Shown in pieces: positions 3,217 to 19,068 of a DNA stretch of 26,435 bases. The notes beneath the pieces are model-generated. The model had not been told where the DNA came from, searched no databases, and was given only the letters and a program-made list of their open reading frames with translations. Positions within the stretch are counted from its first letter, which is position 1, and each line of letters opens with the position of its first letter. A program made the position numbers and the translations under genes. Source of the stretch: a virus. The stretch is from positions 1 through 26,435 of IMG/VR virus record IMGVR_UViG_3300009408_000028. One strand, 5' to 3'.

Positions 3217-3551
3217 TGAGCGAATCAACAGAAGGCCGCTACTTTTGTCAAGTATGCGGTGACGAGTATGCTAAGTCGGCTAGCGCTGCGCAGCTAGGCT
3301 TTTGCTCGAACAATGACTGCAGCGGGCGCGTTACTGAGCAGAGCCGTGTAGCGCATCCGGCTCACTACGCTGGCAACGATGGAAAGTGTGAGGCTATCGA
3401 GGTTATTGAAGCACACAACCTTAACTTCGCATTAGGTTCAGCTGTGAAGTATATTCTTCGTGCCGGCCGTAAACCTGGAGCTGCATTGAGTGAGGATCTG
3501 CGCAAAGCTGTTTGGTTTATCGAGCGCGAGATCGAGCGCGCAGACGATTGA
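3216..3551 (+). CDS. DUF3310 domain protein (T7 gp1.7-like) with N-terminal zinc ribbon
   Basis: I choose GTG 3216 because it overlaps the previous TAG by one base and has AAGGA nine bases upstream. An in-frame ATG exists at 3096, inside the preceding gene. The 111-aa product begins with a CxxC...CxxxxC zinc ribbon (C11, C14, C30, C35). Residues 47-106 then match the DUF3310 pattern: HPAHYAG, IEVIEAHNLNFALGSAVKYI, LRAGRK and DLRKAVWFIERE. DUF3310 is the domain of phage T7 gp1.7, reported as a nucleotide kinase acting on dTMP/dGMP and linked to dideoxythymidine sensitivity. Its place at the end of a thymidylate synthase-DHFR-dNMP kinase operon agrees with a nucleotide role. The zinc ribbon fusion is noteworthy. 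Activity of this copy is inference. Confidence 0.82.
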   Translation: MSESTEGRYFCQVCGDEYAKSASAAQLGFCSNNDCSGRVTEQSRVAHPAHYAGNDGKCEAIEVIEAHNLNFALGSAVKYILRAGRKPGAALSEDLRKAVWFIEREIERADD

Positions 3552-3580
3552 GTCTAGGCACAAAACCGAAAGGAAGCCCA

Positions 3581-4075
3581 GTGGCTAAGAGCAGACAGAA
3601 GCCTGCGTTTCGAGTAGTCAAAGAGCGCGGTCGTTTGCTCACTCGTAGGCCAGGCAGATCGCGTGCGGCCACAGAAGAGGAGGCTTGGCTATGGAACGAC
3701 CGCCGCGCGCTGCTCGACAGGCTCGAGGAGCTCGAGGAGGAGTTAGCAGGCCGTGAAGCGGCTGATGCCATAGCCGAGACGGCACGAGAAGGCAGAGCGC
3801 TCTGCTACAAGGCACTTGCTACTCGAGCTAAGTTGGTTAAGCAGGCAACAAAGTGTGCGGATTCTCTTCGCGTCCTCTCTAGCGAAGTCAGTGACTTGAT
3901 GAAGGAAGGAAAGAGGGCTAAGCTGAGCACTTTCCGGCTTACTCAAGCTAGAAGCAAGCGCGATGTGGCACGCGATGTTGCTGCGGCAACGACAAGAGAG
4001 GCTAACAACCATATTGCCGCGTGCCGCGAAGTTTGGCGAGTCCTACGAACGGGTCGTGATCCTGACGAGGCCTAA
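3581..4075 (+). CDS. Basic coiled-coil hypothetical protein (164 aa)
   Basis: The start is GTG 3581 with AAAGGAAG about six bases upstream; the longer in-frame ATG at 3512 lies within the DUF3310 gene. The product has a very basic first 35 residues (MAKSRQKPAFRVVKERGRLL), then long charged heptad-like helices (RALLDRLEELEEELAGREAA and later stretches), consistent with a coiled coil. No domain is recognised. It is the last gene of the nucleotide operon and is followed 33 nt later by a strong hairpin, so it may not be tied functionally to thymidylate synthesis. Confidence 0.65.
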   Translation: MAKSRQKPAFRVVKERGRLLTRRPGRSRAATEEEAWLWNDRRALLDRLEELEEELAGREAADAIAETAREGRALCYKALATRAKLVKQATKCADSLRVLSSEVSDLMKEGKRAKLSTFRLTQARSKRDVARDVAAATTREANNHIAACREVWRVLRTGRDPDEA

Positions 4076-4108
4076 CTAAATCGCGGACACGTGGCTTCAT
4101 AAAGCGAT

Positions 4109-4178
4109 AAAACTCGATGACGGAGCTGTGAGAGCTTCTTCCAGGAATGGAGTCCTCACAGCTCCATCATCGAGTTTT
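4109..4178 (+). terminator. 24-bp stem hairpin ending TTTT, likely operon terminator
   Basis: Arms 4109-4132 and 4155-4178 are complementary at 23 of 24 positions, with a 22-nt loop. The left arm starts AAAA and the right arm ends TTTT, as in a bidirectional intrinsic terminator. It lies 33 bases after the last gene of the nucleotide operon. The right arm also takes part in the larger palindrome 4154-4658, so the two structures are mutually exclusive. That could be regulatory (inference). Confidence 0.6.
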
Positions 4179-4658
4179 AGTCGCTCCGCTTGCTTTAGCA
4201 AAGGCTTTAGCGCTAAAAGCGGATGACGGAGTCGATAGATACTCCAACGGAGATTCTTAGTCTAGTGTTAGGTCTCACTATTTAGCCTTTTAGCGCTTAA
4301 GACAAAACTCGATAGAGGAGCAAACACTAGTTCGGTCGAAAAGTACAGCGCAAACTTTCTTTTCTTTTTATAGCGTACTTTTCGATCGAGATAGCGTTCG
4401 CTCCTCTATCGGGTTTCACACTTTGAGCGAGAAGTAAAGCGCAAACTTTCTTTTCTTTTTATAGCGTACTTTTAGACAGAACTAGTGTTCGCTCCTCTAT
4501 CGAGTTTTGTCTTAAGCGCTAAAAGGCTAAATAGTGAGACCTAACACTAGACTAAGAACTCTCACCAACAAAGCTCAGAAGCTCGTCATCAGCTTTTAGC
4601 GCTGAAGCCTTTGCTAAAGCAAGCGGAGCGACTAAAACTCGATGATGGAGTTGTGAGG
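4154..4658. repeat. Nested 505-bp imperfect palindrome with iterated 18-bp motifs
   Basis: Arms 4154-4346 and 4466-4658 are 193 nt each. Outer parts (4154-4228 / 4584-4658) match at 72 of 75 positions and inner parts (4254-4321 / 4491-4558) are perfect over 68 bp. The innermost 25 bp match at 22. The arms are interrupted by two unrelated 25-nt segments at symmetric positions. A motif close to AAAACTCGATnnnGGAGC occurs at 4109 (+), 4161 (-), 4304 (+), 4400 (-), 4491 (-), 4634 (+) and, diverged, at 5894 (+). AGCGCT palindromes recur within the arms. No ORF I believe lies here. Candidate roles are a replication origin with iterons, a structured RNA or a protein-binding partition or packaging site. 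No transposase is near, so I do not call an insertion sequence. Confidence 0.9.
4347..4473 (+). repeat. Two identical 36-bp direct repeats with a pyrimidine tract
   Basis: Positions 4347-4382 and 4438-4473 are identical over 36 bp, 91 bp apart. Each contains the tract CTTTCTTTTCTTTTT and ends TAGCGTACTTTT. The duplication extends, less perfectly, to about 4410 and 4501, each copy ending GCTCCTCTATC. The first copy can fold back on 4311-4346 (31 of 36 positions), so the palindrome centre looks like a duplicated half-hairpin. Confidence 0.85.
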
Positions 4659-4669
4659 ACTTTCAGAAA

Positions 4670-4768
4670 AGAATCTTCGAAAAGTTCGATTTTGCCGTTT
4701 ACTTCTTCGAAGATCTTGGTATAATAGAAGTAGAACAAAGAACATCAACCACAACAACGGAGACAACA
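4670..4768 (+). promoter_or_regulatory. Promoter cassette P1 with inverted repeat and leader
   Basis: A perfect TATAAT lies at 4720-4725 in extended form (TTGGTATAAT). The -35 candidate, TTTACT or GTTTAC, is 16-17 bp upstream. An inverted repeat with a 9-bp core, ATCTTCGAA / TTCGAAGAT, flanks the -35; the right arm fills the -35/-10 spacer, the expected place for an operator. The leader ends ACAACAACGGAGACAACA before the ATG, with CGGAG as ribosome site. The same cassette recurs at about 5035, 5925, 6455 and 6885. Confidence 0.85.
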
Positions 4769-5020
4769 ATGAACGCCAAAACACAAACCGCTTTGATGAA
4801 GCAGCTTGACTATAAAGCACAGCGATCGCACGAGACAGCACTTGAGCTGATCGCGACTTTGCAGCGTAAGCTGACAGCACTTGACGCTGAGTTGCGTAAT
4901 GGTTCAACTATCCATTCAGTCGCGGCTGAAGTCATCCCAAGCCGTTTGGTCGGTGAGCTCAACATGCACTTGGTTGCACGCCGCGATGCCAAGCTTATGC
5001 TCGCGGTTATCAGCGACTGA
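4769..5020 (+). CDS. Small helical hypothetical protein (83 aa)
   Basis: The ATG at 4769 follows the conserved CGGAGACAACA leader of cassette P1. The product is almost entirely helical (KAQRSHETALELIATLQRKL) with a charged coiled-coil-like first half and a C-terminal SRLVGELNMHLVARRDAKLM helix. No domain is recognised. It is a single-gene transcription unit: its stop (TGA 5018-5020) is followed immediately by the next promoter cassette. A small, strongly expressed helical protein in this setting would fit an early host-interaction or regulatory peptide, which is inference only. Confidence 0.7.
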   Translation: MNAKTQTALMKQLDYKAQRSHETALELIATLQRKLTALDAELRNGSTIHSVAAEVIPSRLVGELNMHLVARRDAKLMLAVISD

Positions 5021-5124
5021 AAAGTATGCGGAAAGAATCTTCGGAAAGTTGTTTATTTCTCCGAAGATTCTAGTATAATAGAAGTAGAACAAAGAACATC
5101 AACCACAACAACGGAGACTGAAAG
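5021..5124 (+). promoter_or_regulatory. Promoter cassette P2 with perfect 11-bp inverted repeat
   Basis: TATAAT lies at 5074-5079. The inverted repeat is perfect here: GAATCTTCGGA (5035-5045) and TCCGAAGATTC (5060-5070), 14 nt apart, with the -35 candidate between the arms and the right arm in the spacer. The cassette begins AAAAGTATGCGG straight after the upstream stop. The leader resembles P1 (AACAACGGAGACTGAAAG before the ATG). This is the cleanest copy for defining the putative operator. Confidence 0.85.
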
Positions 5125-5444
5125 ATGAACAACCTTCTCTGGAAACGCAAGATGAAGCACAAAGCTTTCCGCGCTGACCTTGTCAGCCGCTTTGGAGACC
5201 GGCTTTCATATCGCCGCTACCGCGAAGACTATGCGCCGCAAGGCGAGGCGCCTGCAGTTTGTCACTTGTACTATGTTGATGATACTCATATTGGCACGTG
5301 GGTCAAAGGTAGCGGTTGGATTCTTAAGTCCGCCGCTGACATCTACGATCTGCAACCAGCTTCCTCAACGCCGACGAGTCCGCTATCACAGCACTGGAAG
5401 TCTTGCTCAAAGAGCTCAAGGAGCGGTCTCGTGGCCGAAGCTAA
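5125..5444 (+). CDS. Hypothetical protein, apparent -1 frameshift near 5353
   Basis: The ATG at 5125 follows promoter P2. The first about 76 residues (from MNNLLWKRKMKHKAFRADL to KSAADIYDLQ) are in the starting frame. After about 5353 that frame becomes Ser/Pro/Thr-rich and unlike the rest. The -1 frame instead reads TSFLNADESAITALEVLL followed by KELKERSRGRS and TAA at 5442-5444, a convincing amphipathic helix. The stop then overlaps the next gene's start by 14 nt, the same overlap seen at 415-428. I infer a product of about 106 aa with one base missing near CAACC (5353-5357), by sequence error, mutation or recoding. No function is recognised. Confidence 0.5.
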
Positions 5445-5754
5445 GGGCAACTGCTACGAAGCCGCATTCAGCTTCCTGCGCTGTTACGGCCGCTCAGATC
5501 CAAGGTTGCGCCTTGTGCATGCTGTCGTAGTTGGCCAAGGACAGATTGCGGGCCTAGAACACGGCCATGCATGGCTTGAGTCAACTGGCTTGGCGCTCGA
5601 CGTTGCAAACGGTCGTCGTATCGTACTGCCAGCTTCCTACTACCGTGAGCTTGGACAAGCCACACAAGTTCACGTGTATACGCTCAGCGAAGCTCGTGAA
5701 CTTGCGCTCGAGCATGAGCACTACGGGCATTGGGAGCTCGACGTAGAGCTCTAG
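5431..5754 (+). CDS. Predicted Cys-His-Asp hydrolase/transferase-like protein (107 aa)
   Basis: The start is GTG 5431 with AAGGAG seven bases upstream. The frame is open further back to 5125, but that part seems to belong to another gene read in a different frame. The product shows GNCYEAAF (C8), GHAWLE (H46) and LALDVANG (D57), then PASYYRELG and EHYGHWEL. An early Cys on a helix, a His on a strand and a following Asp/Asn is the order of transglutaminase-like and papain-like folds. Small phage proteins with NCYEAA...GHAW...YY are, to my recollection, a recurring unknown group. Substrate is unknown. It is translationally coupled to 5125 and followed by a hairpin at 5794. Confidence 0.65.
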   Translation: MAEAKGNCYEAAFSFLRCYGRSDPRLRLVHAVVVGQGQIAGLEHGHAWLESTGLALDVANGRRIVLPASYYRELGQATQVHVYTLSEARELALEHEHYGHWELDVEL

Positions 5755-5793
5755 CGCCTTACAATACAATCCTGTTGTTGGTTTGTGTTTTCT

Positions 5794-5850
5794 CAGAGCC
5801 TCGTCGCGCCGCCTCTGTTCAAGGCTGGTCGCTTGACGAGGCTCTGCCTT
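5794..5850 (+). terminator. Hairpin with 12-bp perfect stem, possible terminator
   Basis: CAGAGCCTCGTC (5794-5805) and GACGAGGCTCTG (5835-5846) are perfectly complementary, with a 29-nt loop, followed by CCTTTT. It sits 40 bases after the stop at 5754 and before the next promoter cassette, so it probably ends that transcript. The short T run makes an efficient intrinsic terminator uncertain. Confidence 0.5.
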
Positions 5851-5893
5851 TTCCAGGAAACCGAGCGGTGGGCACGTGTCTACTAGCACGACT

Positions 5894-6018
5894 AAAACTC
5901 GCTCACGGAGCTGTGGCGACTCCTGGAAAAGAATTCTCGAAAAGTTCGGTTTTGCCGTTTACAAGTGTGAAGATCCTGGTATAATGAACTCTCACAAGCA
6001 ACACCAACGGAGACAACA
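5894..6018 (+). promoter_or_regulatory. Promoter cassette P3
   Basis: TATAAT at 5981-5986 sits in CCTGGTATAAT (extended -10), with TTGCCGTTTACA upstream containing the -35 candidate. The left arm is GAATTCTCGAA and the right arm GTGTGAAGATC, so the inverted repeat is degraded relative to P2. The leader reads CTCTCACAAGCA then CGGAGACAACA before the ATG. The cassette is preceded at 5894 by a diverged copy of the AAAACTCG...GGAGC motif of the palindrome, followed by GGCGACTCCTGGAAAAG, a segment shared with P1 and P5. Confidence 0.8.
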
Positions 6019-6498
6019 ATGACAACTTTCATGACGCAAACTGAACTCGACGCTTGGAGCAAGCTGAATGACGTGTTTGATGTTGTCAGCAGCATCTGCA
6101 GTGACGGTGACATCCTTAATGAGAGCGAAGAGCTTTCTGACGGCTTTCCGCGAACTGTCGAGTATATGGTTGAGCTTGAAGACAGCGGCGACAAGACCTT
6201 CTACGCCCACTACGAGTACGATTGCGACGCTGGTATTACTTACGCAGACGCGATTATCGTCGAGCGCATGCGTGCTATCGTGTGTGGCTTGACTGACGAC
6301 AATTGGACTGTCGAGCACAAGACAACTCCTAAAGGTCGTTTGGTTAAGACCTTCCGTTGCGACCACGGCGACTCAAGCATCAGATCAGTTTACCGCTCAC
6401 TGAAGCAAGCGCGTGACGCTCACGAGAATGGTCATCCAGAAAAGTATGCGGAAAGAATCTTCGAAAAGTCGTTTATTTCTCCGAAGATTCTGGTATAA
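6019..6498 (+). CDS. Acidic hypothetical protein ending inside the next promoter (159 aa)
   Basis: The ATG at 6019 follows the P3 leader. The product is acidic and mixed alpha/beta, with FPRTVEYMVELEDSGDKTFY as a probable strand pair. Residues about 95-135 (WTVEHKTTPKGRLVKTF, then RSVYRSLKQARDA) resemble the C-terminal domain of the protein at 6966 (WTLTVKVTPKGRAVKTW, then FRSLKTAQAA), so the two share a small domain. The last about 19 residues are encoded by the next promoter cassette, and the stop TAA at 6496-6498 is part of its TATAAT. The same cassette after gene 4769 follows a normal stop, so this gene seems to have lost its original end. Confidence 0.7.
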   Translation: MTTFMTQTELDAWSKLNDVFDVVSSICSDGDILNESEELSDGFPRTVEYMVELEDSGDKTFYAHYEYDCDAGITYADAIIVERMRAIVCGLTDDNWTVEHKTTPKGRLVKTFRCDHGDSSIRSVYRSLKQARDAHENGHPEKYAERIFEKSFISPKILV

Positions 6499-6541
6499 TG
6501 AACTCTCACAAGCAACGTCAACCACAACAACGGAGACAGCC
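6441..6541 (+). promoter_or_regulatory. Promoter cassette P4, embedded in the 3' end of a gene
   Basis: TATAAT lies at 6494-6499 in TCTGGTATAAT. The inverted repeat GAATCTTCGAA (6455-6465) / TCCGAAGATTC (6480-6490) matches at 10 of 11 positions. The cassette starts AAAAGTATGCGG as P2 does. The leader CTCTCACAAGCAA then ACAACAACGGAGACAGCC precedes ATG 6542. The upstream coding frame runs through the cassette and ends in its -10 box. Confidence 0.85.
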
Positions 6542-6832
6542 ATGAACAACAACTTCGACCTTCAAGTTTGGAGCTACAAGCATGAGCTTGCTGATCCAGC
6601 TGGCATGACGCTCAAAGAGCGGCGGAAGAACGTAGTCGCGGCTGGCTGGGGAATCGGTTGCAACCGCTCAGGGGATTGGCTGATTGAAGACGGTTACGCT
6701 ACAGAGCGTGACGCGGAAGAGGGTTTGGCCCGCGTCATGAGCGGAGAGCGTAGCCTCGATGATGAAGCCATTTGGGTCTACTACAACTGGAACGCTGGTT
6801 CTTGTCCTTGCTATGAGTGCAACGGTAAGTGA
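6542..6832 (+). CDS. Hypothetical protein with C-terminal CPCYECNGK (96 aa)
   Basis: The ATG at 6542 follows the P4 leader; the frame's earlier ATG at 6413 is inside the upstream gene. The 96-aa product contains KHELADPAGMTLKERRKNVV, then VAAGWGIGCNRSGDWLIEDG, and ends with C-x-C-x2-C (SCPCYECNGK), possibly half of a metal site or a dimeric zinc clasp. The DWLIEDGYATERDAEEGLA stretch suggests a small alpha/beta fold. No family is recognised. It forms its own transcription unit between P4 and the hairpin at 6845. Confidence 0.7.
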   Translation: MNNNFDLQVWSYKHELADPAGMTLKERRKNVVAAGWGIGCNRSGDWLIEDGYATERDAEEGLARVMSGERSLDDEAIWVYYNWNAGSCPCYECNGK

Positions 6833-6844
6833 GAAAAGTTTTGG

Positions 6845-6873
6845 CGCAAGCGCTTGTTGTTTAAGCGCTTGCG
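6845..6873 (+). terminator. Perfect 11-bp stem hairpin after gene 6542
   Basis: CGCAAGCGCTT (6845-6855) and AAGCGCTTGCG (6863-6873) pair perfectly around a 7-nt GTTGTTT loop. It starts 12 bases after the stop at 6832 and precedes the next promoter cassette. No T tract follows, so it is either a weak terminator, an RNA-stabilising end or a protein site. The AGCGCTT palindromes echo those in the 4154-4658 palindrome. Confidence 0.5.
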
Positions 6874-6877
6874 TCGA

Positions 6878-6965
6878 CTCCAGGAAAGAATTCTCGAAAA
6901 GCCGTTTATTTCTCCGAAGATTCTGGTATAATGAACTCTCACAAGCAGCAACAACGGAGACAACA
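6878..6965 (+). promoter_or_regulatory. Promoter cassette P5
   Basis: TATAAT lies at 6927-6932 in TCTGGTATAAT. The right arm TCCGAAGATTC is intact (6913-6923) and the left arm is GAATTCTCGAA (6888-6898), as in P3. The segment between the arms is shorter than in P2/P4. The leader CTCTCACAAGCA, then ACAACGGAGACAACA, precedes ATG 6966. The upstream GACTCCAGGAAAG is shared with P3. Confidence 0.82.
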
Positions 6966-8357
6966 ATGAACACTTTTACCCGCCAGCTGAACACCGCCGA
7001 TTATGCTGCGCTCATTAGCATGACCAACAGAGTCAACAAGCGGATCGACAGAGTCAACAAGGCGCACACGCTGTTCGACAATGTCGCGCTTGTCCACAAT
7101 TCAGCAGAAGCGGTCATGGGCATCGACGGCAAGCGCGAAGTCATTCACACTGTGACCGTAACCGTCCCCACGACCGAAGCGATCTGCCGTCCCGGTTACG
7201 CACTGCTTGCTATCATTACTAATGCAGACGAGACAAGCCTTAAAGACGGTGACAAAAACCGCCTTGTGTCCCGCGTCAATAGCACGGACGTCAACCTTTC
7301 CTGGACGCGGACTTGCAAGCCAACTTGCTATGAGTGCGGTCGCGCAGTTCACCGCAAACGCTTGTTTGCCGTTGCCACGCCGAGTGGCATGGTTGAGCTC
7401 TTTGGGGGCAAGTGCGTCGAAGCGTTCATTCCGAAAGGCAACACGAGCTACTTGAATATCCTCGAAGAGGTGTGCGCCTTCGAGAATCTTCCAGCTGGTT
7501 TTGGTGGCAATGATCCTTGGCACTACAGCGTTAAAGATGTTCTGCAAGTTACGGCACAGTGGCTGACCATTGCGCCGTTTGTTCGGTCGGGTGAAGACAA
7601 TTCGACGCGTGACTGCGTTCAGCACGTGCTTGACTTTGGTGGCATGTGCAAGAGCACTAACTGCTACATCTGTCAAGAGTGGCCTAAGCACGGCTTGACT
7701 GAAGAAGCGGCCGCTAAGATCGCGGACGATGCAAGCGGCTACGCCACAAGTGATAGCTTTGGCAACAGCGACTATGCTGGCAACTTGCGGGCTGTTATTA
7801 ACTGTGGGATCGTGACACCACGCAAAATGGGCTTGGCCGTCTCGGCCGTCTCCGTTTGGAACCGTGAAGTTGAGCGCAAGATCATGGAGCAAGCAGAAGT
7901 CAACGGCGGCTACATTGACGAGAATGTTGGAGACAAAATCAGCGTTGACGCGACCCTCGTATCTGTGAGAGACGGCGGCGGTATCTACGGCGGCTCGATC
8001 GTCAAGCTGTTGACCGCCAATGGAAAAGTTCTTTGCTGGTTTGCTAGCCGCACGCCTTCCTTTCCGATCGGAGCCAAAGTGCACGTCCTTGCTACCGTCA
8101 AGCGCAAAGACGAGTTCAGAGGCCAGCCGAGTAACCTAATCACTCGTGCAAAGCTGACTACGGCAGCGCCTGAGACGGTCAAGCCTGCTAAACCAGCCGC
8201 CGTGAAAGTGCCTGCGGCGTCCGTGACTGATCTTCCCGAAGGTTGGACCCTTACCGTCAAGGTCACGCCGAAAGGTCGCGCTGTCAAGACGTGGCGTAGT
8301 CCTGAAGGCAAGGCTTTCCGTTCACTCAAAACCGCTCAAGCCGCTTGGGAAGCTTGA
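6966..8357 (+). CDS. Zinc-binding/OB-fold-like protein with MBD-like C-terminus (463 aa)
   Basis: The start is ATG 6966 after the P5 leader; an in-frame ATG at 6759 is inside the previous gene. Residues 117-150 hold a Cys cluster (CKPTCYECG ... FGGKC) typical of a zinc ribbon, and C228-C236 (CKSTNCYIC) may be a second site. Residues about 320-400 (VGDKISVDATLVSVRDGGG, then KVHVLATVKRKDEFRGQP) look like an OB-fold barrel, as in many phage nucleic-acid-binding proteins. After a Pro/Ala/Lys linker, residues 423-463 (LPEGWTLTVKV, then WRSPEGKAFRSLKTAQAAW) resemble the methyl-CpG-binding-domain consensus GW...SPxGKxFRS. The overall family is unrecognised; nucleic-acid binding is inference. It is by far the largest early-region protein. 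Confidence 0.75.
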   Translation: MNTFTRQLNTADYAALISMTNRVNKRIDRVNKAHTLFDNVALVHNSAEAVMGIDGKREVIHTVTVTVPTTEAICRPGYALLAIITNADETSLKDGDKNRLVSRVNSTDVNLSWTRTCKPTCYECGRAVHRKRLFAVATPSGMVELFGGKCVEAFIPKGNTSYLNILEEVCAFENLPAGFGGNDPWHYSVKDVLQVTAQWLTIAPFVRSGEDNSTRDCVQHVLDFGGMCKSTNCYICQEWPKHGLTEEAAAKIADDASGYATSDSFGNSDYAGNLRAVINCGIVTPRKMGLAVSAVSVWNREVERKIMEQAEVNGGYIDENVGDKISVDATLVSVRDGGGIYGGSIVKLLTANGKVLCWFASRTPSFPIGAKVHVLATVKRKDEFRGQPSNLITRAKLTTAAPETVKPAKPAAVKVPAASVTDLPEGWTLTVKVTPKGRAVKTWRSPEGKAFRSLKTAQAAWEA

Positions 8358-8379
8358 GCAAAAGAGTCTTTGAATAGCG

Positions 8380-8438
8380 GCGTTTTTGTGCATGGCTTTT
8401 AGTATAATGGATCCGTGCAGCAAACTGAGGAAACAGCT
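8380..8438 (+). promoter_or_regulatory. Promoter P6 and leader of the small-gene operon
   Basis: A perfect TATAAT lies at 8403-8408, with a poor T-rich -35 (GCGTTT or CGTTTT at 8380-8386). The inverted repeat and leader of cassettes P1-P5 are absent, so it is probably controlled differently. The ribosome site GAGGAAA (8427-8433) precedes ATG 8439. The next twelve genes have no other obvious promoter. Confidence 0.65.
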
Positions 8439-8567
8439 ATGACACCCAAGACTATGCAATGCGAGGCCTGCGCACTCAAGTGGGAGTGCGTTTACTTTGA
8501 GCGGCATGGCGCTATGCTTGACGCGTGGTGCTTCAAGCGCATGTCATTACGTTCATTGGAGGTTTGA
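8439..8567 (+). CDS. Very small Cys-rich protein (42 aa)
   Basis: ATG 8439 lies 30 bases after the P6 -10 box, with GAGGAAA as ribosome site. The 42-aa product has a C-x2-C pair (QCEACALKWEC) and a later WCFKRM, giving four Cys suitable for one zinc or iron-sulfur site. It ends LEV-TGA, two bases before the next ATG, so it is the first gene of the 8439-11980 operon. No family is recognised. Confidence 0.6.
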   Translation: MTPKTMQCEACALKWECVYFERHGAMLDAWCFKRMSLRSLEV

Positions 8568-9596: not shown

Positions 9597-9763
9597 GGCT
9601 GACTGACTTGCAGGCTGCGGCTAGCTTCCTTCGCGGCGCCGCAAGCGACACAGAGCGTATGGCACGACGACAGAAGCTCATGGAGCTGGACTATACGATC
9701 ATGCGGGTCAAAGCCGCGCTTGTGCGGCTGGAGGAGGTTCGTGATGCGCGTTATAAAGGGTGA
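9593..9763 (+). CDS. Small helical protein (56 aa)
   Basis: ATG 9593 overlaps the upstream stop (ATGA) and has AAGGAG about eight bases upstream, which decides against the longer frame from 9536. The product is a single charged helical hairpin (LTDLQAAASFLRGAASDTER, then RQKLMELDYTIMRVKAALVR). It overlaps the macro-domain gene by 20 nt. No family is recognised. Confidence 0.6.
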   Translation: MRLTDLQAAASFLRGAASDTERMARRQKLMELDYTIMRVKAALVRLEEVRDARYKG

Positions 9764-10241
9764 CTTGATCGCATTGGCTCAGGCTGGTGAGTTTGACTTG
9801 ATCGTGCATGGCTGCAACTGTTTCTGCTCGTTTGGCGCTGGAATCGCGTTACAGATCCGCAAGACCTTTCCAGAAGCGTGGGAATCGGACAAAGCCAGCG
9901 TCAAAGGGGCTGAAGGGAAGCTTGGGACCGTTGATTTTGTGCCTTGCATGCCGCCGAGTGGGTCGTTTGTTGTGGTAGGGAACGCATACACGCAATTCCG
10001 CTATTGGGGCAAAAGGCCCAAGACGGACTACGGTGCTTTGCGAGCATGTTTCCGTGAAGTGAAGCAGCTTTGCGATGACCACCGAAAGACCTATGGCGCT
10101 GCGGTTCCACTGCGAATTGGGTATCCGAGGATCGGTGCTGGGCTTGGCGGTGGTGACTGGGCCTACATTGCTCGAATCATTGACGAAGAGTTGGACCACG
10201 AAAACCATACGCTAGTGGAGTACGAGAAGGAGCGACAATGA
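9744..10241 (+). CDS. Macro-domain protein (ADP-ribose hydrolase-like)
   Basis: The start is ATG 9744 with GGAGGAGG nine bases upstream; the frame also opens at 9720, inside the previous gene. The 165-aa product is one macro domain: MRVIKGDLIALA at the start, HGCNCFCSFGAGIALQIRKT (residues 22-41, the ADP-ribose-binding loop with GAGIA), a VVVGNAYTQ strand, and YPRIGAGLGGGDWAYI (127-142, second ligand loop). The RIGxGLxGxDW form is closest to the TARG1/OARD1, DarG and Poa1p-like branch. These enzymes remove ADP-ribose from proteins or DNA or hydrolyse ADP-ribose-1''-phosphate. In a phage, reversal of host ADP-ribosylation defences or NAD metabolism is plausible, but that is inference. It is coupled to genes on both sides. 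Confidence 0.9.
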   Translation: MRVIKGDLIALAQAGEFDLIVHGCNCFCSFGAGIALQIRKTFPEAWESDKASVKGAEGKLGTVDFVPCMPPSGSFVVVGNAYTQFRYWGKRPKTDYGALRACFREVKQLCDDHRKTYGAAVPLRIGYPRIGAGLGGGDWAYIARIIDEELDHENHTLVEYEKERQ

Positions 10242-11682: not shown

Positions 11683-11980
11683 GGGTGGCTCGCAGCGTGA
11701 GCGCGACGGCCGCGATATTAGGTGGTTTCAGCCCGGGTATGAGTATTGGAGTGATCGACCCGGGAATAAGAATGGGGCCTTTCAGACAGGTCGGTGGACT
11801 AAAACTTGGACCCATCGGGCTGAGCGAAGACAAGCTAAGAAATGTGTGGAAGAAGCTGTCGTAAAACAAAATGAAATGCTGGGCTTTAGGGGCTGCGTTT
11901 CTTCGCAGCCTTTTCTACAGCGAGGGGGCCCTAAGGTGCCTTTTTTTGGAAAACTGAGGCCTGGGGCCTTTTTGGTGTAG
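11666..11980 (+). CDS. Basic protein whose frame runs through the terminators
   Basis: ATG 11666 overlaps the previous gene. Residues 1-70 are basic and aromatic (MSRTFRGGSQRERDGRDIRW, then WTKTWTHRAERRQAKKC), as in a nucleic-acid-binding tail. The last about 35 residues (from GFRGCVSSQPFLQRGGP to the end) are read from three hairpin/T-tract terminators at 11891-11974, so that part is unlikely to be under protein-level selection. The native protein may originally have ended near 11880, with loss of a stop. Function is unknown. Confidence 0.5.
   Translation: MSRTFRGGSQRERDGRDIRWFQPGYEYWSDRPGNKNGAFQTGRWTKTWTHRAERRQAKKCVEEAVVKQNEMLGFRGCVSSQPFLQRGGPKVPFFGKLRPGAFLV
11891..11916 (+). terminator. 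Intrinsic terminator, first of three
   Basis: GGCTGCG (11891-11897) and CGCAGCC (11904-11910) form a perfect 7-bp GC-rich stem with a 6-nt loop, followed by TTTTCT. It is a classic rho-independent form at the end of the 8439-11980 operon. Confidence 0.8.
11924..11947 (+). terminator. Intrinsic terminator, second of three
   Basis: GGGGCCCTAAGGTGCC can fold with GGC/GCC closing pairs and an internal CC/GG pair (one bulge), followed directly by seven T residues (11941-11947). The stem is weaker but the T tract is long. Confidence 0.6.
11957..11974 (+). terminator. Intrinsic terminator, third of three
   Basis: AGGCC (11957-11961) pairs with GGCCT (11965-11969) around a 3-nt loop, followed by a T run. 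Together with the two upstream hairpins it gives a triple barrier to early transcripts entering the late region. Confidence 0.6.
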
Positions 11981-12284
11981 TAATGCTTGGAAACACTGCC
12001 TCCGGGAAGGGCTTTACTACTCATTTCTTAGGGTATATATATAGAGCCGCTTAAAAAACGCTCGCTAAGAGGTGGCGGAAAAGCGTAAAGATTGGGGTAA
12101 AGATTGGGATTGTTTTTTACTCTTTTTCGTTAATTTATTTATTGTATTTAAGTATATATATATTTTATACGCAGTCCCGCGTGCCCACGACGTGTATACT
12201 GCGACGTAGACTGTATATACCCCTAGAAATCAGTAGTAAACCTGACCACTTTATGGGGTATACTCGCTAGCAAAGGAGGCCACT
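11981..12284. other. AT-rich intergenic region before the late genes
   Basis: No believable ORF occurs in these 304 bases. Runs such as GTATATATATAG (12033-12044) and a T/A-rich stretch 12111-12170 make it clearly more AT-rich than its surroundings. It holds a tandem 12-bp repeat (12085-12108), an 8-bp inverted pair TATACCCC (12216-12223) / GGGGTATA (12255-12262), and TATACT hexamers at 12195 and 12259. None has a convincing -35, and the second lies too close to the AAAGGAGG ribosome site at 12270 to leave a leader. Late transcription probably starts here, perhaps with an activator or a phage polymerase; origin-like melting is another option. Confidence 0.6.
12085..12108 (+). repeat. Tandem 12-bp repeat
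   Basis: GTAAAGATTGGG occurs twice head-to-tail (12085-12096, 12097-12108), followed by ATTG and then T-rich DNA. It may be paired binding sites for an activator of the late promoter or an origin iteron; nothing else identifies it. Confidence 0.7.
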
Positions 12285-13460
12285 ATGGCAAGCGACAGGA
12301 CAGACGACGAGAAACGCCTAGCTAGAAATAAGCGAGCTCGTGAGAGTAGAGCACGTAGAAAGGCTAAAGAGCAAGCAAAACTCGAAAAGGCATTAGCGAA
12401 AGAGAAAGCGCTTGCTGAGAAACGCGAAGAGCAAGACGCACTTGCTGCGGCTCGCAGAAAGACCACAGCAAAGCGAAATGCCGCACAGCGCAAGACACGA
12501 ACTGCGAATGCTAAAGCGAAAACTAGCGACCACGCAAAGCGAATGGCTTGGCGTAAGAAGAAGCCTACCCGCCTCGCTACTCGCATCAAAACTAAGCTAG
12601 GCGAGCTACAGCTTGCAGGCGACGATATTCTTTATGCCGAGGCTTGCTCGCTTATTGATGACGGAAAGCTCGCCTACGTTCCTGCAAAGGTGCGCAAAGC
12701 AAGTGGAAGACAAGGCAAGTGGGAGCCAGACAAAGACATGCCCCTCTGGCTGGCCTACTTGGTCGCGAATGGTCGCATGTGCGGCGCAAGACACCGACGC
12801 TCGCTACTTGCTGATGGCCGTGTCCTGTACACGCGAATTCACGAGCTACAAAGTGACCCAAAGCTCGCACACTTGGCCGACGGTGCTATTCAATTGCATT
12901 GTCGCCATCGTCCGCCTGAGCTGCTGCTTGCTACCAATCCCATCGGTTGCAGACCTATTCGCTGCTATGCCCATGCTGGGCAGTTCACACTCGCGGCTAC
13001 TGAAGAGCGAATCATGGAGCAGGGCAGCTTTTACGCCGCGTGTTTTGATCCTGAAGAAGCAGAAATGCTCTTGTCCATGATTGAAGACCCGGTTGATTCG
13101 CTCAATGCCGAAATCTCGATGATGAAGATCAGGCTGCGGCGTAAGGTCAAGAAGGAAGCCCGCCAAGCGTTCTATCTCACTCGCAAGAATCGCGACGAGG
13201 TGCTTGAGCTCAAGAGCCTCCAGACCGTTGACGGCTATGGGCCTGAAGGGAACTATGGTTCTGTCACAGCTACGAAGGAAGTTCGCGACTACAGCAAAGA
13301 AGTTGCTTCTATCGTGGCTCAGCTGTGCCGCCTGATCGCGACTCGACACGAAATCAACGGCAACAAAACACTCGACGAAGCCGGTGTCGCTGCTAGGATT
13401 CGCGGATTCGTCAACAAAGCATGGGACGCACAGATCGAGGCGAAGAATGAGCTGGCTTAA
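12285..13460 (+). CDS. Lys/Arg-rich coiled-coil protein, first late gene (391 aa)
   Basis: ATG 12285 has a near-perfect AAAGGAGG ribosome site. Residues 1-105 are an extremely charged coiled coil (RRKAKEQAKLEKALAKEKAL), like DNA-binding tails. Residues 105-250 form a mixed domain with several Cys/His (GAIQLHCRHRPPELLLATN), and residues 255-391 are helical (DSLNAEISMMKIRLRRKVKK, then EVASIVAQLCRLIATRHEIN). In many phages a protein with such a paired-helix C-terminal region lies just before the terminase genes, so a role in DNA packaging or as small terminase is possible. The HTH protein at 13705 competes for that role. I do not recognise a named domain. Confidence 0.7.
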   Translation: MASDRTDDEKRLARNKRARESRARRKAKEQAKLEKALAKEKALAEKREEQDALAAARRKTTAKRNAAQRKTRTANAKAKTSDHAKRMAWRKKKPTRLATRIKTKLGELQLAGDDILYAEACSLIDDGKLAYVPAKVRKASGRQGKWEPDKDMPLWLAYLVANGRMCGARHRRSLLADGRVLYTRIHELQSDPKLAHLADGAIQLHCRHRPPELLLATNPIGCRPIRCYAHAGQFTLAATEERIMEQGSFYAACFDPEEAEMLLSMIEDPVDSLNAEISMMKIRLRRKVKKEARQAFYLTRKNRDEVLELKSLQTVDGYGPEGNYGSVTATKEVRDYSKEVASIVAQLCRLIATRHEINGNKTLDEAGVAARIRGFVNKAWDAQIEAKNELA

Positions 13461-13638
13461 CGTATGTACTTGCTGTCTTAACCCGCTGTTTGGCATCGAC
13501 AGCCGATGCACGAATCCGCATTGCGCGAATGGAGCCAGCTACCTTCGCTGGCTTGTCGCTGCCAGGAAAGCCTGTCAAGATCCAGGCGCTTCTGTGCTTG
13601 CCTACAAGCTCCACAAGTCTGCACCGCTGAACTTTTAG
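13447..13638 (+). CDS. Small zinc-ribbon protein (63 aa)
   Basis: ATG 13447 overlaps the previous gene by 14 nt, with GAGGCGAAG upstream. The 63-aa product begins with Cys pairs (NVCTCC, then SRCTNPHC), one likely zinc site, followed by a short helix (YLRWLVAARKACQD). No family is recognised. It lies between the Lys-rich protein and the terminase genes. Confidence 0.6.
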   Translation: MSWLNVCTCCLNPLFGIDSRCTNPHCANGASYLRWLVAARKACQDPGASVLAYKLHKSAPLNF

Positions 13639-13704
13639 CTGCGTTTACTTGAGCTTGCTACACGCATAAGGCTGCAAGATGTGGCTCTGTGGAGGCACGA
13701 GTTG

Positions 13705-14031
13705 ATGAGCTTTACGCTGAGCACCTTGTCGAAGGATGCCATTTCTGAGCAAAGCGAGCAAGAGCTGCGCGACTCTGTTGTGCGACTTACCGCTTGTCTG
13801 GAGAAGCGGAAGAAGTCCAAAGCCAGGCCTGGACCAGCGAGCTACTTGACAACCTTCGGCGAGCGTGACCTTCGGGTACGCGAAGTCAGAGCTTTGCTGA
13901 CCACTGTTCGCAGGCAACTCGCTGCAATCATGTTCGCTAGTGGAGCCGGTGAGCTTGAAGTTGCCGCAGCCTGTCAGGTCCAGTCTTCCACCGCCAGGAA
14001 CTACCGCCACAAAATCTGGCGCTATCGGTGA
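13705..14031 (+). CDS. Helix-turn-helix protein, candidate small terminase subunit
   Basis: I choose ATG 13705, with GGAGG nine bases upstream, over GTG 13681 in the same frame. The product has about 108 residues: a charged helix (SEQELRDSVVRLTACLEKRK), a second helical block (RDLRVREVRALLTTVRRQLA) and a C-terminal helix-turn-helix-like segment (GELEVAAACQVQSSTARNYR) followed by basic residues. A DNA-binding HTH protein overlapping the start of the large terminase (GTGA overlap) is the usual setting of TerS, which recognises the packaging site and regulates TerL. The HTH being C-terminal is less common, so the call rests mainly on position. Confidence 0.55.
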   Translation: MSFTLSTLSKDAISEQSEQELRDSVVRLTACLEKRKKSKARPGPASYLTTFGERDLRVREVRALLTTVRRQLAAIMFASGAGELEVAAACQVQSSTARNYRHKIWRYR

Positions 14032-15416
14032 GTGACGAAGACGCTTTTGCTCTTCCGCCTCGCTGGCACCCTGCGCGACTCTCACCGCCTCAGCTTGGCT
14101 ATGTTCGGTCTACTGCCCGTGTCAACCTAGTTATCGCTGGTCGTCGCTCATTCAAGACCGAAGGCGCTAAACGTCGGCTCATCCGTGCCGCCATCGGATT
14201 TACCGAATTCTCCGATGGACGCTTCTATGCCACAGCTCCAACGCATCGCCAGTCCAAGGACATCTTTTGGACTGACTTGAAGGCAATGGTCCCCGATTGG
14301 GCGATCCAAGGTGGCAGGCGGCGCGGTATTAGCGACAGCGAACTCACGATCAGCCTGGTGAACGGGGCGAAGATTAAGGTCGCAGGCTTAGACAAGCCGG
14401 AACGAATTGAGGGCAAAGATTGGGACGGCGGTGTAATCTCGGAATTCGGGAACTGCAAGGCCAACGTGTTCAGCGAAGTGATCCGCCCAATGATGACGCG
14501 TGGTGGTTGGATTGACATCGAGGGCGTACCGGAAGGTCGCAACCACTACTACGATCTTGCGACTCGGGTGCTTGACGGTAAACTTCCAGGCGGAGTGCAC
14601 CATCATTGGACGACTGAAGACGTGTTGCACTTGTGGCTTGGCGAAAAGCGCGCAGCTGCAGAAATTGCAGAAGCGAAAGAGTCGCTGGACACACTTACCT
14701 ACGATCAGGAATATCGTGCTCGTTTCATCAGCTTCGAGGGGCTTGCTTATCATGCGTTTTCACCAGCTAATGTTGCCGCCAATGGCGATCGTGTCGTTTA
14801 TCAACCAGACCTTCCGCTTATCCTGGCGTTTGACTTCAACCGCGAACCAGGTGTCTGCGCTTATATCCAAGAGATCCCCGCGAATCGAATCGGATGGCTG
14901 AAGAACCCTAACATCAGTCGCCAAGGCTGCATTACTTCGGTCATTGGCGAGGTGTTCATCCGGCGTCGCTCAAACACAAAGCTAGTTTGCGAGCGGATTC
15001 TTGCAGACTGGGCAGACCTGCACCGCGGCGATGTCGTGCTCTATGGTGACCCTGCTGGCGGCGCGAAAGGCAGCTCTGCGATCGAGGGCTCTGACTGGGA
15101 CTTGATTGACGCGCATCTGCGCCCTGCTTTTGGGCGACGACTCATCGACCGTGTCGCTACATCCGCTCCCAGGATACGAGTGCGATTGAACAGTGTAAAT
15201 TCGCGACTTGAGGCAGCCGACGGCCGCATCGGCCTGGTTGTTGATGCCAAGGCTGCTCCACATGTCATCCGTGACTTTGAGGGCGTCCAGGCGGACTCTC
15301 AGGGTAGCATCATCAAGACAGCCGGAGACCCGCTAACTCACATCTCTGACGGTATCGGCTACTATATCTGCGAAGCTCACCCGCTGGGTGGTCCTGTCAC
15401 GACTGTGCGACGGTAG
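14028..15416 (+). CDS. terL: Terminase large subunit
   Basis: GTG 14028 overlaps the previous stop. The 462-aa product is the packaging motor, an N-terminal ATPase followed by a C-terminal RNase H-like nuclease. Visible motifs are a degenerate Walker A (AGRRSFKT, residues 37-44, with Phe where Gly is usual), Walker B/catalytic Glu (DGGVISEFG, 133-141), a coupling-type motif (VPEGRNHYYDL, 167-177) and the three nuclease acidic sites (ILAFDFN around D269, LYGDPAGG around D341, HISDGIGYY around D441). Length is normal for the family (400-600 aa). It drives DNA into the prohead through the portal, whose gene starts at 25526. The separation of the two genes is unusual. Confidence 0.93.
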   Translation: MSDEDAFALPPRWHPARLSPPQLGYVRSTARVNLVIAGRRSFKTEGAKRRLIRAAIGFTEFSDGRFYATAPTHRQSKDIFWTDLKAMVPDWAIQGGRRRGISDSELTISLVNGAKIKVAGLDKPERIEGKDWDGGVISEFGNCKANVFSEVIRPMMTRGGWIDIEGVPEGRNHYYDLATRVLDGKLPGGVHHHWTTEDVLHLWLGEKRAAAEIAEAKESLDTLTYDQEYRARFISFEGLAYHAFSPANVAANGDRVVYQPDLPLILAFDFNREPGVCAYIQEIPANRIGWLKNPNISRQGCITSVIGEVFIRRRSNTKLVCERILADWADLHRGDVVLYGDPAGGAKGSSAIEGSDWDLIDAHLRPAFGRRLIDRVATSAPRIRVRLNSVNSRLEAADGRIGLVVDAKAAPHVIRDFEGVQADSQGSIIKTAGDPLTHISDGIGYYICEAHPLGGPVTTVRR

Positions 15417-15475
15417 CGACCAGCCCAGTGCCTCAAGCTAAAGCCTACTCTCCCACGCTTTGAAAGTCGCCTCAA

Positions 15476-16099
15476 ATGTCGTTCCTCGCAATGGCTGTTT
15501 CGGATGCTGGTTGGCTTAGCTCTGGTGCGGGCGCAATCTTGCTGACATTCTTAACAACCAAGTTCTGGCCAGAAATCGTTGAGTACTTCAAGCGCTCAGA
15601 AAAGCGCGAAGTCGCTGCCGAACAAGCAGCTGCTTCGGCGCCAGAAAAGGCTCTCGCTCGTGCCAAGACTGCGCAAGAGCAGGCCTTAGAGCTCGCTGCA
15701 AGCATCTCCAAGAGTGAGGAAGCTAAGCGAATCGCATGGCAGGGCGAAATTCGGCAAAGCTATATTCCGGTCATCGCTGAAATCAAGCGCGATAAGGCTT
15801 CTGACATAGAGCAGCTCCGAACCACATTCGAGGCTGCCATTGCAGAACTTCGCCAAGATCGGGACTATTGGCGACAGCAAACACACGAGCTTAAAGATGA
15901 GCTACTTGCCGCACTGGTTGACAGCACAGAAACACTTGACGCGCTCAAGGAAACGGTCGCTGAACTCGGTGAGACTTTCGCCGACAAGCTAGCTACAAGC
16001 GATGCGCTAATGGCTCTCACTTACAAAACGCTGAAAGGAAGTTCCAATGGCAGCGACTCCTCCTCCTCCTCCTCCTCCGGCATATTCGGAGGCAGCTGA
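15476..16099 (+). CDS. Membrane-anchored coiled-coil protein (207 aa)
   Basis: The ATG at 15476 has only a weak ribosome site; ATG 15491 is an alternative. Residues about 12-32 (GWLSSGAGAILLTFLTTKFW) are a single hydrophobic segment, followed by a basic stretch and a long coiled coil (about 35-170) rich in Ala/Glu/Gln. It ends with a Ser-rich tail of seven Ser encoded by a TCC microsatellite. A membrane anchor plus long coiled coil resembles an inner-membrane spanin or another lysis-associated protein, but the position after the terminase is the only support. Its 3' end overlaps the next gene by 53 nt. Confidence 0.65.
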   Translation: MSFLAMAVSDAGWLSSGAGAILLTFLTTKFWPEIVEYFKRSEKREVAAEQAAASAPEKALARAKTAQEQALELAASISKSEEAKRIAWQGEIRQSYIPVIAEIKRDKASDIEQLRTTFEAAIAELRQDRDYWRQQTHELKDELLAALVDSTETLDALKETVAELGETFADKLATSDALMALTYKTLKGSSNGSDSSSSSSSGIFGGS

Positions 16100-16289
16100 T
16101 GCTCGCCTTAAGGAGGAAACCGCAATCATCATGATGGAGTTAGCGTCACAAAGAGGCGCCGTAAACGACACGACGAAGTTGGCCAGGGCTAAGACTCGTC
16201 TACAAAGTGTGCGCCTTTCCAGCCCTTGTCGCGGTTTGCCTCGCCTCTCTGCCCAGGAAATCAAGCGCTTGCTACGCGAAGCAAGCTGA
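16047..16289 (+). CDS. Proline-tract small protein (80 aa)
   Basis: ATG 16047 is preceded by AAAGGAAG, a strong ribosome site, which supports translation despite the 53-nt overlap with the upstream gene. It begins MAATPPPPPPPAYSEAADAR, with seven Pro read from the same TCC repeat that gives seven Ser in the other frame. The rest is a charged helix (LKEETAIIMMELASQRGAVN) and a basic C-terminus (SAQEIKRLLREAS). No family is recognised. Confidence 0.6.
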   Translation: MAATPPPPPPPAYSEAADARLKEETAIIMMELASQRGAVNDTTKLARAKTRLQSVRLSSPCRGLPRLSAQEIKRLLREAS

Positions 16290-16301
16290 AAGCGAGAAAC
16301 A

Positions 16302-16682
16302 ATGGAACCAGACGACATTGCCCCAGGCGTGAAGCTGAACAGCTGGTGGGAAATCGAAGTAGCTTTGAGTCAATCGATGGAGTCGCTCATCATCCTGGTG
16401 CAGGGCAAGTGGAAAGCCCTAGCCTACAGCCATGACTTGCTGTGCCGAACGAGCAAGGAGTACGCTGACGATGCTATCCTCGCTGCGGCACCTCTTGGTC
16501 CTGTCGAGATTGAGGGATTCCTTGCGACACCGCTTATCGTTCCTGCTGTCTTGATGGTTCGGCCCGACGACGTAGTGGGGGTGTTGATCCGGCGAGCGCC
16601 GCACAATGTCTTTCATTTACAAGATGACGAGGCGCCGGAAGTGCCTGACGCCAAGCGCTTGACGACTGTACCAGGAGGCTGA
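16302..16682 (+). CDS. Hypothetical protein (126 aa)
   Basis: The ATG at 16302 follows GAAAGCGAGAAACA. The product is moderately acidic and beta-rich, with hydrophobic strands (MESLIILVQGKWKALAYSH, then FLATPLIVPAVLMVRPDD, VVGVLIRRA). There is no signal peptide or clear membrane helix. It overlaps the holin-like gene by one base. I cannot assign a function; minor structural or lysis-accessory roles are both possible from position. Confidence 0.62.
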   Translation: MEPDDIAPGVKLNSWWEIEVALSQSMESLIILVQGKWKALAYSHDLLCRTSKEYADDAILAAAPLGPVEIEGFLATPLIVPAVLMVRPDDVVGVLIRRAPHNVFHLQDDEAPEVPDAKRLTTVPGG

Positions 16683-16921
16683 TGAGCATGAACAAGAAAT
16701 CGACGAAAACTACGTTTGCGGGAATCGCTGCCGCTCTTGCCTTGATTTTGGCGGGCTTGGCTGCGATGTTCGATGCTGACCCGAGCACCACGGCCAACAT
16801 GGCGAAGATGCTCCAGGGCGTGCTGTTTATCGCTGCTGCACTTGGCATCGGCTTTGGTGGCGTGTCGGCTCGCGACGACGATGTCACATCGGAAGGCCGT
16901 AAGGCTCCGAAGGCGAAATAA
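16682..16921 (+). CDS. Small two-helix membrane protein, holin-like (79 aa)
   Basis: The start is ATG 16682 or ATG 16688, both after CCAGGAGG; a dual start is reminiscent of holins. A basic N-terminus (MSMNKKSTKTT) is followed by two hydrophobic segments, about 12-31 (FAGIAAALALILAGLAAMFD) and 41-60 (AKMLQGVLFIAAALGIGFGG), then the charged tail SARDDDVTSEGRK. Small phage proteins with two such helices and an ARDxxVTSE tail occur repeatedly near lysis genes. Function as a membrane pore former is inference from topology. Confidence 0.65.
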   Translation: MSMNKKSTKTTFAGIAAALALILAGLAAMFDADPSTTANMAKMLQGVLFIAAALGIGFGGVSARDDDVTSEGRKAPKAK

Positions 16922-17284
16922 GTGGCCACGCTCCCTGGCACCTACAACTTGCGCATCAGCCAGGGAGCGACGTGGCTCCAAAGCTTTCGTTGGCTTGACA
17001 GTTTGAACGTACCTATCAATCTTGCGGGCTACGTGGCCAGGCTACAAGTTCGTAAGTCGTACAACTCGCCTGACCCTGTGATTAGCCTAGCGAGCGGTGG
17101 TCAAGGCCTTGTGCTTGAAGCGAGCGGACAGCTTGGCAGAATTGACGCTGAGTTGTCCGCCACGCAGACCACACTACTCGAAGCACCTTGGGCTGGAGTG
17201 TGGGATTTAGAGCTAGAACTCGCAGGTGTTGTTACTCGGCTTCTTCAGGGCCGGGCTCGTGTCTCTCCAGAGGTGACCAAATGA
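16922..17284 (+). CDS. Adhesion-module protein A1, BppU-like beta-rich (120 aa)
   Basis: GTG 16922 directly follows the previous stop. The product shows the pattern QGATWLQSFRWLDSLNVPIN, NLAGYVARLQVRKS, ELSATQTTL, GVWDLELELAG, RLLQGRARVSPEVTK. This is a common small tail-associated family, in which a one-domain beta sandwich precedes collagen-like fibre genes. It has a clear paralogue in this window at 21105 (QGATFQKLFRW, TGYLARMQVR, GVYDLELV, VQGRARIKPEVTR). Both copies are followed by a collagen-like gene, so they mark a duplicated module. A baseplate or fibre-connector role is inference. Confidence 0.75.
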   Translation: MATLPGTYNLRISQGATWLQSFRWLDSLNVPINLAGYVARLQVRKSYNSPDPVISLASGGQGLVLEASGQLGRIDAELSATQTTLLEAPWAGVWDLELELAGVVTRLLQGRARVSPEVTK

Positions 17285-17538
17285 GCTACGACTCAGCATG
17301 CGAGGCGACGCATCCAGGACTGCTGCCGCGTCTGGTCTGTGAGCTCCCGGTCGGCCACAAGACAGCTCATACGGCTAAGGGCTGCAGCTGGGCACAGCCA
17401 CAAGGCACCTTTCGCGTGTTGTTGCTTAGATCCACTGGTTCGTGGGCTATCACGAATGCAGCATCCGGAAAGATCGTAGAGGAAAACTTCGCAACCTGGA
17501 CGCTGGCGAATAAACGGCGACTCGAGCTTACCTCCTGA
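17281..17538 (+). CDS. Small Cys/His protein (85 aa)
   Basis: ATG 17281 overlaps the previous stop (ATGA). The product contains CEATHPGLLPRLVCELPVGH, then KTAHTAKGCSW, an array of Cys and His that could hold one zinc ion and recalls the DGHKGSC motif of protein 2584. The C-terminal half is beta-rich (FRVLLLRSTGSWAITNAASG). It sits between two fibre genes, so it may be a structural accessory. No family is recognised. Confidence 0.6.
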   Translation: MSYDSACEATHPGLLPRLVCELPVGHKTAHTAKGCSWAQPQGTFRVLLLRSTGSWAITNAASGKIVEENFATWTLANKRRLELTS

Positions 17539-18262: not shown

Positions 18263-18567
18263 ACCGCAGCCGACTCATTAACACTTGGGACGTGCCTCTT
18301 GCCGTACCTGCCATCGGCGATGTGCTGGTCACAGTCCGCTTCACTAAGCTCGTTGGTGACCTAGATCTACGCTTGGTCACTGTTGGTTTGGCCGGCAGTA
18401 TCGGGATACGTTTGGATGGTGACACGGTAGACAGAGCAGTGTTAACTGGAAGTGAGTTGGACATCGACATCTTTGCCGATGCGACTGGAGTTAGAACGCT
18501 CACGCTAATAGCGCGTGCAGCGCCAACTTCATTCACGTATGGCGAGCTCATCATGCTGCACAAGTAG
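18259..18567 (+). CDS. Beta-rich hypothetical structural protein (102 aa)
   Basis: ATG 18259 overlaps the previous stop (ATGA). The product is almost entirely alternating hydrophobic strands (IGDVLVTVRFTKLVGDLDLR, LVTVGLAGSIGIRL, TLTLIARAAPTSFTYGEL), a small beta-sandwich or fibre-tip profile. There are no Cys and no membrane segment. It belongs to the fibre block by position and overlap. No family is recognised. Confidence 0.62.
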   Translation: MNRSRLINTWDVPLAVPAIGDVLVTVRFTKLVGDLDLRLVTVGLAGSIGIRLDGDTVDRAVLTGSELDIDIFADATGVRTLTLIARAAPTSFTYGELIMLHK

Positions 18568-18576
18568 GGGACAATC

Positions 18577-19062: not shown

Positions 19063-19068
19063 GCGCAT

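Follow-up and report, generated by a model that had tools for sequence, protein, structure and literature searches.

What does a phage gain by placing nearly the same promoter ahead of five genes in a row, most copies with an inverted repeat across the -35 box? This question is raised by a locus in the IMG/VR virus record IMGVR_UViG_3300009408_000028, the whole of which (26,435 bp, hereafter the window) was analysed. The window is part of a tailed phage genome, and the locus is an array of five promoter cassettes (P1 to P5) in a region between nucleotide-metabolism genes and the terminase gene. The anatomy of the cassettes gives good support to a tandem series of promoters of the host type, in which a dyad resembling an operator overlies the -35 box. 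We favour, with modest confidence, a five-copy array of operator, host sigma-70 promoter and leader, in which the dyad would be bound by a dimeric phage protein.

The heptamer GTATAAT occurs at 4719, 5073, 5979, 6493 and 6926, with a perfect TATAAT -10 box at 4720, 5074, 5980, 6494 and 6927 in P1 to P5, respectively, and each cassette stands ahead of its own start codon (n = 5). We found that a 28-nt core pattern matched four cassettes with at most 3 mismatches and was given by none of 100 shuffles; the remaining copy, P3, has diverged further. Hence, the five-copy array described in an earlier reading of the letters alone (the original prediction) is present where it had been placed. The -35 hexamer is TTTACT in P1, TTTACA in P3 and a weak TTTATT in P2, P4 and P5, and the spacer to the -10 box is about 16-17 bp. 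Promoter scores were 10/12 for P1 and 11/12 for P3, which together with its TG is the strongest promoter match. The extended -10 had been ascribed to all copies; we found the TG in P1, P3, P4 and P5 (4/5), the exception being P2, which has TAGTATAAT rather than TGGTATAAT. These copies and promoter elements, as well as the places of the dyads, the spacing difference of 10 bp and the mosaic recombination, are read directly from the sequence.

The inverted repeat pairs at 10 of 12 positions in P1, 12 of 12 in P2 (the best dyad, 5034-5045/5060-5071), 7 of 12 in P3, 11 of 12 in P4 and 9 of 12 in P5. The repeat that all copies were predicted to share is thus strong in P1, P2 and P4, weak in P5 and nearly lost in P3. 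Its centre falls on the -35 box, about -33 to -38 relative to the expected start, with one arm just upstream of the box and the right arm within the -35/-10 spacer; the coordinates agree with the prediction that the right arm fills this spacer. The distance from the right arm to the -10 box is constant across cassettes, and the arm-to-arm distance, centre to centre, is 36 bp in P1 and P3 (long form) and 26 bp in P2, P4 and P5 (short form). The two forms differ by exactly 10 extra bp between the left arm and the -35 box (TTCGATTTTG in P1), about one helical turn. Hence, the arms stay on the same helical face, as expected if one protein contacts both, and the difference is more readily explained by a site for a protein than by an RNA or a sequence accident. 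Both arms change together between P1 (CTTCGA/TCGAAG) and P2 (CTTCGG/CCGAAG). The left arm, which lies outside the core promoter, is retained in all copies (at least 12/17 nt for every pair of cassettes), and the half-sites within the window are confined to the cassettes.

When the same segments were shuffled, only the dyads of P2 (0/400) and P4 (3/400) stood out from the shuffles. Other phage DNA (1.53 Mb) contained 313 GTATAAT sites, of which 2 had a dyad with 10 or more of 12 pairs that stops directly before the -10 box, and these two are one sequence present in two contigs; in this window, 3 of the 6 GTATAAT sites have such a dyad. A promoter-like repeat in at least three copies was also found at some other phage loci, so repetition alone is not unique. 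The sixth GTATAAT of the window lies within 8402-8445, has no dyad and is followed by AGGAAACAGCTATGAC, which matches the M13 reverse primer and lacZ ribosome-binding site sequence, a resemblance most likely due to chance or convergence.

Between the -10 box and the start codon lie 33-45 nt of CAA-rich, unstructured leader (two were folded), with CGGAGAC directly before the start codon. A common leader end before the ATG had been predicted; it is exact in three of the five (CGGAGACAACA-ATG in P1, P3 and P5) and differs in P2 (CGGAGACTGAAAG-ATG) and P4 (CGGAGACAGCC-ATG). There are two leader types, A and B, and all four combinations with the upstream forms are present: long-A in P1, short-A in P2, long-B in P3 and short-B in P4 and P5. 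Hence, the cassettes exchanged parts or underwent conversion after duplication.

These features suggest that a single operator-promoter-leader cassette was duplicated into a block of host sigma-70 promoters, and that a dimeric phage DNA-binding protein probably sits on the 12-bp inverted half-sites. The bound dimer would cover the -35 box, exclude polymerase and repress all five units together; activation of all five by the bound protein would be a less likely alternative. Since the dyad straddles the -35 box, the best reading appears to be sigma-70 promoters with an operator to which a dimeric repressor of the phage would bind, and since the dyad lies outside the transcript of its own promoter, it is more likely to act as DNA. 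From this anatomy we infer promoter activity, a bound protein, repression and timing. If this reading is right, the natural variation among the five copies, with one dyad nearly lost and with two arm spacings and two leaders, offers ready material for probing the operator in simple reporter assays. Two other promoter types were considered and rejected: for the hairpin promoter of phage N4, the arms and loop are too long and the sigma-70 boxes are plain, and for spacer remodelling of the MerR type, the spacer is 16-17 bp rather than 19-20. The features of the locus, including the genes behind P1 to P5 (g1 to g5), are given in Table 1.

Table 1. Coordinates of the promoter cassettes, genes and hairpins of the array in the window
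Feature	Position	Strand	Description
Upstream element common to P1 and P3	4629-4669	+	4629-4725 vs 5889-5985, 80%; outer part is the end of a palindrome arm
P1 core	4670-4725	+	left arm 4670-4681, -35 4698-4703, right arm 4706-4717, TGG, -10 4720-4725; long form
P1 leader, type A	4726-4768	+	CAA-rich, unstructured, GGAG ribosome-binding site
g1	4769-5020	+	83 aa, no family
P2 core	5034-5079	+	dyad 5034-5045/5060-5071, -35-like TTTATT 5052-5057, -10 5074-5079, no TG; short form
P2 leader, type A	5080-5124	+	first 20 nt past the -10 identical to P1
g2 region	5125-5754	+	open as 209 aa; frame change suspected near 5360-5445
Terminator-like hairpin, g2 to P3	5793-5858	+	12-bp GC-rich stem, then CCUUUUCC (short U-tract)
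P3 core	5930-5985	+	degenerate dyad 5930-5941/5966-5977, -35 TTTACA 5958-5963, -10 5980-5985; long form
P3 leader, type B	5986-6018	+	
g3	6019-6498	+	159 aa as open; frame crosses the operator-like dyad of P4, stop inside the P4 -10
P4 core	6454-6499	+	dyad 6454-6465/6480-6491, -35-like TTTATT 6472-6477, -10 6494-6499; short form
P4 leader, type B	6500-6541	+	
g4	6542-6832	+	96 aa, no family
Hairpin, g4 to P5	6841-6877	+	strong, about 16-bp stem, without U-tract
P5 core	6887-6932	+	dyad 6887-6898/6913-6924, -35-like TTTATT 6905-6910, -10 6927-6932; short form
P5 leader, type B	6933-6965	+	
g5	6966-8357	+	463 aa; PHROG 2319 (unknown function), residues 20-398; predicted MBD-like C-terminal domain

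Several observations weigh against an operator. The dyad of P3 is nearly gone, yet P3 has the best promoter and retains its leader; the original prediction had named loss of the dyad in relatives beside a conserved -10 box as a sign against it, and a comparable loss inside the array tells mildly in that direction. The dyad of P5 is weak as well. The best dyads (P2 and P4) are found where the cassette directly adjoins the preceding gene, which fits an RNA role too, and the 10-bp step is seen in two classes only. Because the five cassettes arose by duplication, they amount to roughly one event rather than five independent ones. Searches of IMG/VR, GenBank phages and GTDB genomes turned up no relative that carries the cassette, and the dyad-binding protein is a candidate only, and a speculative one.

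Part of this would be explained if the cassettes were plain strong early promoters, copied by duplication and unregulated, with the dyad a by-product of descent or a tuning of strength and with no dedicated regulator. The -10 box is perfect in 5/5 cassettes, mostly with the extended TG, P3 kept the promoter and lost the dyad, and the promoter repeats of PAK_P1-like Pseudomonas phages are taken simply as host polymerase recruitment (PMC4309531). We nevertheless consider this account somewhat unlikely, because it does not predict dyads of 12/12 and 11/12 in constant register with the -35 box, an arrangement very rare elsewhere, nor the retention of the left arm beyond the core promoter, nor the 10-bp step from arm to arm.

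Alternatively, the inverted repeat could act as RNA, as a hairpin in read-through transcripts that stops or processes RNA after g1 and g3 and so insulates the units. P2 and P4, which lie directly behind the preceding gene with no other terminator between, have the best-paired arms, and the arm-to-arm fold forms in both (-18.1 and -11.8 kcal/mol), whereas P3 and P5, behind strong hairpins at 5793-5846 and 6841-6877, have no such fold; P1, behind a large palindrome described below, forms an arm-to-arm hairpin not better than expected (z -1.3). However, chance alone would give such a 2-against-3 split one time in 10, the stem of P2 is the sole one with significant stability relative to shuffles (z -3.4; P4 z -1.2), there is no U-tract after the stem and the g3 frame crosses the P4 stem, which makes an RNA role unlikely. 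The cassettes might also serve mainly as recombination anchors, short homologies for swapping small genes that each bring their expression signals. All four upstream/leader combinations are found, P4 appears to have become fused to the end of g3, with the g3 frame continuing into the cassette, and we found no relatives of g2, g3 and g4 among 50,697 phage records and no clear PHROGs match for g1 to g4. Recombination leaves the dyad and its position over the -35 box unexplained and is compatible with an operator; as the main role of the cassettes, it seems to us very unlikely.

Which protein might bind the dyad? The original prediction held that no regulator is evident in the window, and this may be wrong: g3 and g5 end in a predicted methyl-CpG-binding domain (MBD) fold, a DNA-binding fold described chiefly in eukaryotes, where it reads methyl-CpG. 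The C-terminal domain common to both (g3, 6268-6438, about residues 84-140; g5, 8205-8354) has 20/43 identical residues and is weakly similar to MeCP2 (E 0.02). A model built from these 2 sequences (pLDDT 77.5) has the sheet-plus-helix order, and the first 26 Foldseek matches in the PDB are all methyl-CpG-binding domains, although the best E is only 0.037. VIA-align to AtMBD6 gave Z 5.7 and an rmsd of 1.0 over 43 residues, in the range where chance matches also arise. Pfam MBD (PF01429) gave no match to the domain at E up to 10, and a search of phage records turned up nothing related to it. In the MeCP2 alignment, the second arginine finger (FRS) is retained and the first is replaced by threonine; hence, methyl-CpG reading is not implied.

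The modelled domain is thus a possible candidate regulator of the array, which the two genes would supply if the operator reading is right. Since g3 and g5 are both inside the array, autoregulation is possible, if speculative, and the domain as binder would close a feedback loop. In its fullest form, a self-controlling module in which MBD-fold proteins expressed from P3 and P5 regulate transcription by binding the half-sites, which contain CG, this idea strikes us as quite unlikely.

Repeated elements of this kind are known from other phages. In cluster K mycobacteriophages, the ESAS consists of a SigA-like promoter and an inverted repeat upstream of the start-associated sequence (SAS), and repressor binding has been proposed (PMC3203893, PMC11373665). 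The array shares with ESAS/SAS the repeated intergenic cassettes, the non-structural part of the genome, a sigma-70/SigA-like promoter, an imperfect inverted repeat and an element at the start codon; promoter plus inverted repeat of the ESAS type are clear in P1, P2 and P4, weak in P5 and nearly lost in P3. However, the sequences are unrelated, the cassettes here have 12-bp arms and a 14- or 24-bp loop with all copies within 2.3 kb, and the phage is not of cluster K as far as the terminase shows. The 13-bp SAS (GGGATAGGAGCCC) gave 4 matches with at most 3 mismatches, relative to a chance expectation of 4.0, and none in the cassettes. The array would work like ESAS but lies outside the ESAS family; its kind was already known and the virus is new.

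PAK_P1-like Pseudomonas phages have a 41-nt sigma-70 promoter repeat that is present 5-6 times in a variable region presumed to be early (PMC4309531); repetition of a single sigma-70 promoter to about this number is common to them and the array. Their repeats differ in being TTGACA-N17-TAgAAT and in belonging to myoviruses, and neither a dyad nor a conserved leader is mentioned in the section of that account consulted. The SPBRE of Bacillus prophage SPbeta is likewise a repeated promoter-region site, present at about ten phage genes and with proved binding of the MrpR repressor (PMC10516654), but it is a 15-bp motif with a recombinase-fold repressor and copies scattered over the prophage. The many-copy 17-bp dyads of cluster O mycobacteriophages have a suspected role in expression (PMC4351075) but lack a constant promoter and leader attached to them, and the many-copy intergenic repeats of HF2, which were shown to carry promoters (PMC8707807), belong to an archaeal virus. 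If our reading is right, the promoter-dyad-leader arrays of mycobacteriophages and prophage SPbeta extend to another phage group.

Searches for the cassette elsewhere found no further copy. With blastn, 4000-8400 had no DNA match in the 50,697 phage records, including any to a repeat of the PAK_P1 type. Two of three DNA patterns had no matches in IMG/VR and the third had 11 lone matches without dyad or leader, about the chance number; one pattern searched in 84,980 species genomes gave six lone matches, none in a cassette context. No relatives were found via g5 and g2, and relatives found via the dihydrofolate reductase (DHFR) gene were too distant and served as background only. A second contig of the same phage ends short of the array and has no additional cassette in its sequence, and MW202621, a complete genome and the nearest named phage, has no promoter array by the promoter-repeat test. 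In the IMG/VR phage 3300042879_005260, three spaced copies of AAAGGTATTGACCTGATATTTA (minus strand 17415, 6015 and 5443) are each followed by a TATAAT-like hexamer; these are possibly an independent promoter-repeat family.

The units behind the promoters were predicted to be separate and small, which stands in part: g5 is 463 aa, and P2 and P4 adjoin the preceding gene with no other terminator. The array had also been likened to early host-takeover regions; such a role is at most tentative here, as no function is known for the driven genes and the region has nucleotide-metabolism genes on one side and the terminase on the other. In g2, the +2 frame gives FLNADESAITALEVLLKELKERSRGRS-stop, overlapping the GTG start of a second protein (MAEAKGNCYEAAF...); the suspected frame change may reflect two genes or an error in the sequencing.

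A near-perfect inverted repeat of ~510 bp overall (4151-4346/4466-4661) separates two gene blocks immediately ahead of P1. Its arms of ~196 nt are 96-97% identical in two blocks with one unpaired stretch of ~25 nt, and its 119-nt loop contains most of an 80-nt direct repeat (4337-4416/4428-4507). As DNA, the palindrome folds at -214.6 kcal/mol, compared with -72 for shuffles, and its core is absent from every other IMG/VR contig; it may be an origin, a terminator or a fold-back element. An element of ~30 nt (TAAAACTCG....GGAG.TGTG) occurs four times (4106-4179, 4631-4665, 5891-5925): one copy starts the series at 4108, one lies in inverted orientation at 4157, and the other two precede P1 and P3. 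The copies at 4108 and 4157 form a 25-bp hairpin behind the gene at 3512-4075.

To the left of the array are DHFR, a thymidylate-kinase-like gene and a DUF3310 gene, and to the right is the terminase large subunit (14028-15416), whose closest match is Manatee Spring phage MW202621 (45%), followed by a second Manatee Spring phage (36%) and Yua/Nipuna-like Pseudomonas phages (31-32%). Rfam and tRNA scans gave no matches. The second contig is 99.99% identical over 11904-25413 and runs on 14 kb rightward, with apparent tail and head genes in this extension; by analogy, the full genome is likely about 55-60 kb, with roughly a quarter outside the available sequence. Among the small genes ahead of the terminase is one for a macro-domain protein (9720-10241; Pfam PF01661, above cut-off), and two genes downstream of the terminase contain collagen-like GPQGPQ repeats (17590-17680 and 21500-21560).

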